The notes under the pieces: generated by a model
Database searches by the model: none
What the model was told of the DNA's origin: nothing
What the model saw: only the letters and a program-made list of their open reading frames with translations
Shown: piece by piece, positions 1-321 of the stretch
How the letters are laid out: every line of letters begins with the position of its first letter
Numbering within the stretch: the stretch's first letter is position 1
Assembly (NCBI GenBank): GCA_012517155.1
Contig: JAAYVN010000121.1
Location: forward strand, 1-64,000
DNA: 64,000 nt
Origin: Ignavibacteriales bacterium
GTDB lineage: Bacteria; Bacteroidota; Ignavibacteria; Ignavibacteriales; Ignavibacteriaceae
Direction: 5' to 3'
Position numbers and translations under genes: made by a program

Positions 1-1
1 A

Positions 2-160
2 TTTCATAATAGTCCTCAGGCGAGATGGACTAAGAGATTTCAGCCATGGGTTCTTAGATATTTTGAAGAATTTGAGACAAGGTCAGAAGCCGTAATCAGA
101 GAAAATGAATTAAAAAGGCAAAAAAGTATAAAAAGGTACTTGGAAAGCCAAAACCTCTGA
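2..160 (+). CDS. GIY-YIG nuclease family protein, C-terminal part (5' end outside window)
   Basis: The frame is open from the left edge to TGA at 158-160 and gives about 52 residues. They include the segments RWTKRFQPW and YFEEFETRSEA followed by a Lys/Arg-rich end, as in the C-terminal half of the small (about 80-100 aa) stand-alone GIY-YIG proteins common in Bacteroidota. The catalytic GIY-YIG motif lies outside the window. A tRNA-Gly-like 3' half and a second, N-terminal GIY-YIG fragment follow at once, so this looks like one copy of a repeated unit. The biological role of these small nucleases is not known; a homing-type activity is inference. The family call is fairly firm, but whether the gene is intact cannot be judged. 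Confidence 0.7.
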   Translation, partial: FHNSPQARWTKRFQPWVLRYFEEFETRSEAVIRENELKRQKSIKRYLESQNL

Positions 161-161
161 C

Positions 162-220
162 TTGGCAGAGTCATCCCGACCAGTCGGGATTGGTCGCGGG
201 TTCGAGTCCCGTCTCCCGCT
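162..220 (+). pseudogene. tRNA-Gly-like 3' half (non-functional tRNA remnant)
   Basis: Positions 196-212 form a good T arm: stem GCGGG/CCCGT around the loop TTCGAGT. Positions 213-219 (CTCCCGC) followed by T are the 3' acceptor half expected of a tRNA-Gly whose 5' half is GCGGGAG. A D-arm-like TTGGCAGAG lies at 162-170. No GCGGGAG occurs upstream, where the GIY-YIG gene ends instead. The anticodon arm is replaced by a perfect inverted repeat (173-180 with 183-190, 2-base spacer) that cannot form a 7-base anticodon loop. It is therefore not a working tRNA. The element reads in frame into the GIY-YIG start at 223. Confidence 0.65.
173..190. repeat. Perfect 8-bp inverted repeat in the tRNA-like element
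   Basis: ATCCCGAC and GTCGGGAT are separated by CA. The repeat takes the place of the anticodon arm in the tRNA-Gly-like remnant. It could be a nuclease recognition site, an RNA hairpin or a scar; the sequence alone does not decide. Confidence 0.7.
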
Positions 221-222
221 CA

Positions 223-321
223 ATGAAATACTTTGTGTATATTCTAGAGAGCAAGTCGAGAGACAGATTTTATATTGGATCGACTGAAAATCTTGATAAA
301 AGGGTTCTAGAAAAAGAATAA
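223..321 (+). pseudogene. GIY-YIG nuclease family protein, N-terminal fragment
   Basis: ATG at 223 opens a 32-residue frame ending in TAA at 319-321. The residues YFVYIL and FYIGSTENL match the two strands of the GIY-YIG fold (VYIL...YIGST). The frame then ends about 60 residues short of the usual family length. No C-terminal remnant is visible before tRNA-Thr at 345. It complements the C-terminal part at 2-160, but the order is C-terminus then N-terminus, so these are two copies and not one interrupted gene. The frame is open upstream through the tRNA-like element back to position 109. Confidence 0.65.

Follow-up and report, generated by a model that had tools for sequence, protein, structure and literature searches.

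Why should a gene for a small GIY-YIG nuclease lie between an intact and a broken copy of the same transfer RNA (tRNA) gene? The question is raised by the first 321 nucleotides of a DNA stretch from an Ignavibacteriales bacterium (GenBank assembly GCA_012517155.1, contig JAAYVN010000121.1, positions 1 to 64,000 of the forward strand; the whole 64,000-nucleotide stretch is called the window). A preliminary description had proposed that half a tRNA-Gly and a GIY-YIG gene together make up a mobile unit, which would occur repeatedly and either target or copy a tRNA-Gly locus. Recurrence and the tRNA-Gly locus were borne out, and the distribution of the unit suggests mobility. The restriction to tRNA-Gly proved too narrow, as at least 16 isotypes and two layouts were found. 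With a probability of roughly two in three, we regard the window locus as a copy of a widespread minimal chromosomal tRNA-homing element. It would work in the manner of the phage endonuclease SegB and would leave a self-restored tRNA and a palindrome-scarred copy.

A GIY-YIG subfamily beside tRNA genes

The strongest single result is a control within genomes. In 15 genomes not chosen for the pattern, a tRNA or tRNA fragment lies beside the gene on the same strand in 42 of 53 members of the window-type subfamily (37 of 47 after removing loci fetched twice), compared with 0 of 25 genes of the sister subfamily. A second set of 80 loci, of which 78 hold full domains, was collected by protein similarity alone. 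The protein searches were built on the closest pair, and the whole diverse protein set has no conserved stretch. A tRNA was found at most 300 bp away for 50 of the 78 full domains in this set, in all cases on the same strand. The 80 loci span Bacteroidota, Ignavibacteriota, Chlorobiota, several Patescibacteria lineages, Planctomycetota, Fidelibacterota, Elusimicrobiota, Pelagibacterales and others. At least 16 isotypes are involved: Ala, Arg, Asn, Asp, Cys, Gln, Gly, His, Leu, Lys, Met, Phe, Pro, Ser, Thr and Val. In two Pelagibacteraceae loci (L147, L156), a subfamily gene starts 0–4 bp after tRNA-Glu, with no recognisable fragment on the far side.

Searches at the DNA level gave a similar picture. 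A strict tRNA-Gly pattern matched only one (G084) of 146 relatives and suggested a rare element, a view overturned once the pattern was loosened to any tRNA. The resulting palindrome-plus-T-arm pattern occurs in 55 of 392 genomes of the phylum, and the reversed pattern in 0. Broken tRNAs make up the matches; they belong to many isotypes, often form tandem arrays and in many cases adjoin a GIY-YIG gene. Matches reading TCCCGACTGTCTCTCGGGA in one genus were rejected as the long variable arm of a normal tRNA-Ser, and some other palindromes are terminators (e.g., L207).

The unit measures about 320–500 bp and consists of a GIY-YIG gene of about 80 codons and a partial copy of the adjoining tRNA. 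In the type A layout, the intact tRNA is followed by the GIY-YIG gene and a fragment of the same tRNA; in type B, a 5' fragment precedes the gene and the intact tRNA follows it. When 76 testable loci were searched for a fragment of the same tRNA on the opposite side of the gene, 61 had one, compared with 1 of 76 in a reversed-tRNA control. Tandem units of 317, 323, 358, 365 and 494 bp occur, with copies 96–100% alike, and there are also arrays of the tRNA copy only, with 68-bp units (L053).

The palindrome is a regular component of these units: an inverted repeat lies at the break in 67 of 72 distinct fragments. The breaks fall mostly at the D loop (canonical positions about 15–21), around or within the anticodon arm (26|44, 34-37|48) and at the T loop (about 53–62). 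In 33 cases, both sides of the break are preserved, and in 28 of these the inserted stretch forms a perfect hairpin with a stem of at least 6, each with a shuffle fraction of at most 0.02. Exchange of a whole arm is common, as in tRNA-Lys (TCTGCCTTTTAAGCAGA to CTCCGATTTATAATCGGAG) or in a tRNA-Thr copy of L190, whose anticodon arm is exchanged 17 nt for 17, and in some copies two or even three arms have a palindrome (L094, L241, L257). The palindromes form families by lineage (TCCCGA, CTCCGA, TCCGCC, ATGCTGAC, TCTCGTC, CCTGCC). Pairing extends past the searched core in 68 of 93 inner pairs, with 30 expected. Palindromes of the TCCCGA kind are over-represented throughout the window genome (25, compared with 0 reversed), and from a reading of their contexts, 13 of the 25 lie within tRNA remnants or units.

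Several single loci add to this picture. In a Mcinerneyibacteriota metagenome-assembled genome (MAG), positions 2285–2359 of L098 form a complete tRNA-Asp-like cloverleaf in which essentially the anticodon arm alone is altered, to TCCCGATGTCTATCGGGA; ARAGORN calls a tRNA with a four-base anticodon (gtct). At 193–777 of L092, tRNA-Asn is followed by four 62-bp units (palindrome AATTCCGAAGGATTTCGGAATT and tRNA 3' end) without a gene and by one more after the gene, which resembles gene-less and gene-bearing versions of one unit. On contig C13 of genome G000 (94–468, L201), tandem units of about 72 bp contain five palindromes. Each unit has a tRNA 3' end with TCCCGATRCTCGGGA in the T loop, and a terminator-like hairpin comes after it; no GIY-YIG gene lies in the part read. 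At 2130–3087 of L066 (G393:C12, minus strand), a tRNA-Asp array near a GIY-YIG unit is mixed with palindrome-armed fragments, and three of its copies have the anticodon GCC on an otherwise tRNA-Asp body, which ARAGORN calls tRNA-Gly. At three places of G000 outside tRNA remnants (C6:9129, C28:12581, C97:25242), TCCCGAC..GTCGGGA lies inside a longer dispersed repeat (..CGCCGTTTA-palindrome-CGKTTAAGA..), which is either an unrelated repeat family or a source of the palindrome.

The nuclease is under purifying selection: the ratio of non-synonymous to synonymous substitution rates (dN/dS) is 0.02–0.37 in the close pairs for which it could be computed. The active-site residues Y, G, R, H and E are invariant in 100 of 100 tRNA-linked domains. 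Window-type proteins have about 80–100 amino acids, and the Pfam match spans residues 2–71 of 81–84. The best profile matches among solved structures are UPF0213 (1zg2, E-value 2e-14; 1ywl, 2e-12) and SLX1 (7cq2, 9e-9). In a tree, the window-type genes fall outside the clade of free-standing UPF0213-like genes (SH-aLRT 99; moderate weight, as the alignment is short), and 45 of 49 members of that sister clade have no tRNA beside them.

Relatedness of the nucleases goes with isotype. Both members of a pair adjoin the same isotype in 20 of 20 pairs at least 60% identical, in 15 of 107 (14%) at 50–60% and in about 6–7% of the rest. This is expected if nuclease lineages are tied to their target and sometimes switch. 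Isotype is also clustered on the tree, with 69 changes compared with 91 after shuffling (0 of 200 as low), on a short alignment in which many forks are open and near-copies add to the clustering. Supported groups with one isotype cross host families (e.g., Asn). By break position, the same isotype is found in 2 of 20 pairs of T-loop-broken units and in 25 of 76 pairs of anticodon-broken units; this hints at more frequent switching in the former, but the pairs are non-independent and we make no claim of it.

The window locus and its empty site

The window opens within such a unit. Its features, all on the plus strand, are as follows:

1–160: C-terminal 52 codons and stop of a first GIY-YIG gene, the 5' part of which lies on contig C41
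about 155–172: degenerate D-arm remnant of a tRNA-Gly copy (GACTTGGCAGAGTC, compared with CTCAGTTGGTAGAGTC)
173–190: perfect inverted repeat ATCCCGAC-CA-GTCGGGAT, which replaces the anticodon arm of tRNA-Gly
190–221: 3' part of tRNA-Gly with variable region, T arm and acceptor 3' strand (canonical positions about 43–74)
223–321: second GIY-YIG gene, a truncated pseudogene whose frame reaches a stop
345–418: tRNA-Thr(GGT), the native right neighbour of tRNA-Gly, a flank outside the unit

The order in the preliminary description (GIY-YIG C-terminus, tRNA-Gly-like part, GIY-YIG N-terminus, tRNA-Thr) holds. So does its open frame leading into the GIY-YIG start at 223, since frame 1 is open from about 109 across 223 to 318. 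The inverted repeat, with arms of 8 bp and a loop of 2 nt, occupies the position of the anticodon arm exactly. Alignment of the window copy, AGAGTCA[TCCCGACCAGTCGGGA]TTGGTCG, with an intact tRNA-Gly on contig C41, AGAGTCA[CAGCCTTCCAAGCTG]TTGGTCG, establishes the replacement. The copy had been called a tRNA-Gly 3' half. Its T arm and acceptor part are indeed intact, and 190–221 is identical to the same part of the intact tRNA-Gly(TCC) on C41. A degenerate D arm precedes the repeat, which makes the copy nearly full-length and defective, that is, more than a half. As a single strand, the window copy folds in an unremarkable way overall (z −1.2).

Base 1 of the window is the edge of its contig (C38). 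The same repeat is found at the end of contig C41, which overlaps positions 1–22 of the window, so the assembly broke at this repeat; the overlap suggests that the two contigs join here. On the minus strand, the end of C41 holds tRNA-Tyr, a degenerate tRNA-Gly copy, the intact tRNA-Gly(TCC) and the 5' part of a GIY-YIG gene. The intact tRNA-Gly and the further copy that might be looked for to the left of the window are both on this contig. The degenerate copy has its own arm palindrome, ATCCCGAT-CA-ATCGGGAT, which differs from that of the window in the innermost pair by a paired change from C-G to T-A. Window positions 190–306 are 98% identical to the tRNA-Gly 3' part and GIY-YIG 5' end of C41. 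The first GIY-YIG gene, when joined, encodes 81 amino acids and gives a good PF01541 match, well over the cut-off. The joined locus reads tRNA-Tyr, degenerate tRNA-Gly, intact tRNA-Gly, GIY-YIG, tRNA-Gly copy, truncated GIY-YIG, tRNA-Thr. Downstream of tRNA-Thr are an rpmG-like gene, tRNA-Trp and genes that read as secE, nusG, rplK and rplA.

Recurrence beside GIY-YIG genes in other genomes is strongly supported and speaks against a chance arrangement; it excludes that the arrangement is unique to the window genome or lacks a following GIY-YIG gene elsewhere. At the identical tRNA-Gly site, the unit occurs in three families. Genome G084, from another family of the same order, has tRNA-Tyr, tRNA-Gly, GIY-YIG (84 amino acids), a tRNA-Gly copy with ATCCCGAC-TT-GTCGGGAT and tRNA-Thr, and a Melioribacter MAG (L090) agrees with it in arrangement and sequence. 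A third family, represented by G081, has the same arrangement with the palindrome ATCCCGC-AATTCA-GCGGGAT. In nearly all other relatives with a readable site, tRNA-Gly lies close to tRNA-Thr without a GIY-YIG insert. A clean empty site is provided by G097, from the genus of G084: its flanks are colinear on both sides, its tRNA-Gly is identical, and exactly the 414-bp unit is absent. Patchy presence together with the empty site points to gain and loss.

According to the preliminary description, Bacteroidota GIY-YIG proteins may be annotated with N-terminal residues translated from this DNA (SHPDQSGLVAGSSPV). In a comparable way, reading frames of other units pass through the palindrome or T arm (...KIEHPDL in L046, ATVIPTGRDAGSSPARG... 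in L058).

Proposed homing and the other explanations

In the proposed homing cycle, the nuclease would cut an unoccupied tRNA gene at or near a hairpin arm. An occupied copy would then serve as the template for repair, which would need no homology beyond the two tRNA halves and would bring in the GIY-YIG gene. A complete tRNA would be restored before the gene (type A) or after it (type B), and the displaced tRNA part would be left on the other side with its cut arm replaced by the palindrome. Through this replacement, the copy that remains at the native flank would lose both its cut site and its function as a tRNA, and recombination between tRNA copies would multiply the units in tandem. The GIY-YIG gene has the same orientation as the tRNA, whose promoter probably drives its expression. 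DNA cleavage, homing, expression and the protective role of the palindrome are inferred, and the nuclease would be the part that does the targeting.

The following points weigh against homing. No fragment lies across the gene in 15 of 76 linked loci. No carriers were found among phages, plasmids and viral contigs with the queries used. The protein alignment contains no DNA-binding region of the I-TevI/Seg kind beyond the catalytic domain. The isotype sharing of close nucleases could also be due to vertical inheritance at one site. Finally, the intact donor tRNA of G084 is identical to that of the empty allele in G097, and the donor would nevertheless have to escape cutting. Free-standing GIY-YIG enzymes usually cut their donor alleles poorly (PMC13096335), which matters here because the intact donor tRNA is unchanged.

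Among solved domains, UPF0213 and the structure-specific nuclease SLX1 come nearest, so recognition of hairpins has to be weighed as an alternative. One form of it is a previously undescribed class of mobile DNA, in which the nuclease would recognise hairpins that tRNA genes extrude and would swap a tRNA arm for a mobile palindrome. Folds of DNA resembling a tRNA would serve as the address and the short palindrome as the cargo, and the gene would travel with it, flanked by a restored tRNA and a scarred copy. We consider this unlikely.

Unlikely, too, is a conflict at the RNA level similar to a type III toxin-antitoxin system, with the GIY-YIG protein as a toxin that cuts tRNAs of one isotype and the palindrome-armed copies as decoys or antitoxins. 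The ties between nuclease lineages and isotypes would fit, as would tandem arrays of tRNA copies without a gene (L053, L052, L190), full cloverleafs with one altered arm (L098) and copies that reach the Rfam tRNA threshold (L067, L128). However, the type B remnant is often just the first 14–26 nt of the tRNA and a hairpin, which is no decoy, and the 5' acceptor strand is missing from many copies. The nearest solved relatives, UPF0213 and the DNA nuclease SLX1, also speak against a tRNA-cutting toxin.

We give still less credence to an exchange of hairpins, in which a structure-specific GIY-YIG enzyme would act on hairpins or cruciforms. The mobile part would be a short palindrome that replaces tRNA arms, and tRNA duplication and the gene would follow. 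Palindromes at D-loop, anticodon-arm and T-loop positions, sometimes in two or three arms of one copy, the base-for-base arm swap in L190, the genome-wide excess with pairing beyond the searched core, and SLX1 as the nearest characterised relative are in line with it. Yet terminators and other repeats at a distance from tRNAs contain about half of the palindromes in the genome, and orthologous units differ in palindrome sequence.

Debris of duplication is a very improbable source. Here, tRNA loci would simply duplicate often, the GIY-YIG gene would be a passive neighbour, and the palindromes would be unrelated insertions into dead tRNA copies. Arrays of tRNAs and palindromic repeats are common in these genomes, and some arrays of tRNA copies, as in L190, have no gene. 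This reading is contradicted by the same-strand linkage restricted to one GIY-YIG subfamily (42/53 compared with 0/25), an order of parts that is repeated at many isotypes and across many phyla, and purifying selection with a fully conserved active site.

Least probable of all is insertion of the integrase type, in which a site-specific recombinase would act in trans on the duplicated tRNA parts as attachment (att) sites and GIY-YIG would be cargo. In its favour, the 3' end of a tRNA gene is a classic place of attachment and is the part duplicated in type A. In type B, however, the duplicated part is the 5' end. Moreover, a second gene would not fit into the repeat unit, the recurrent cargo always belongs to one GIY-YIG subfamily, and the palindrome in the duplicated part is superfluous in this model.

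Comparison with known systems

In the open-licence full-text literature, we found no description of chromosomal GIY-YIG units in tRNA genes, and an earlier description is possible. The unit shares features with several known systems. Like REP/RAYT elements, it combines over-represented short palindromes, a nuclease gene flanked by them and gene-less copies. It differs in having GIY-YIG in place of a Y1 transposase and in carrying its palindromes inside tRNA copies; no Y1 (TnpA_REP) transposase gene is present in the unit. Integrative elements at tRNA attB sites also duplicate a tRNA part and restore tRNA function. The present unit, by comparison, has about 0.4 kb, both 5' and 3' duplications and a palindrome at the break, and it contains no recombinase gene, as just the GIY-YIG open reading frame fits. 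Group I introns with GIY-YIG genes in tRNA anticodon loops have the tRNA target and the gene in common with it, and there is a weak match to a group I intron endonuclease model. In the present units, the tRNA is restored as DNA, without splicing; an intron was rejected, as neither the start of the window nor any of 13 loci matched an intron model of Rfam.

At the protein level, UPF0213/YhbQ and SLX1 are the best profile matches, and UPF0213 is similar in size to the present protein. UPF0213-like sister genes in the same genomes are not beside tRNAs, unlike the window type. As it lacks the DNA-binding region, the protein is kept apart from the Seg/I-Tev group.

The closest parallel in arrangement is SegB of T-even phages, a GIY-YIG homing endonuclease of the T4 tRNA region (PMC2988022) whose gene likewise adjoins tRNA genes. 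SegB cleaves tRNA genes internally and causes tRNA-Tyr and segB to be amplified in tandem (PMC13096335), and it is linked with preferential inheritance of the tRNA region (PMC2988022, PMC13096335). In our reading, the motif reported for SegB, RAWTSGAAC, corresponds on the opposite strand to GTTCSAWTY, the T-loop consensus of tRNAs, and its position in the tRNA is the site of one palindrome class described here. SegB is phage-borne, larger, provided with a DNA-binding part and confined to one tRNA cluster, and no palindrome-armed tRNA copy has been reported for it. The present unit resides in bacterial chromosomes, has only the catalytic domain and comes as a separate unit for each tRNA, of which one copy is restored and one broken.

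The element is common in bacteria of the Bacteroidota group and occurs in Patescibacteria, Planctomycetota and others. It accounts for an oddity that recurs in annotations, namely tRNA-like repeats, pseudo-tRNAs and GIY-YIG proteins with odd N-termini. It would also create tRNA duplications, and it would allow a direct test of the way in which essential tRNA genes can be parasitised by a nuclease while the host survives. If the homing reading is true, the unit is among the smallest autonomous selfish elements, with one gene of about 80 codons and borrowed tRNA sequence, and is a chromosomal counterpart of phage SegB.
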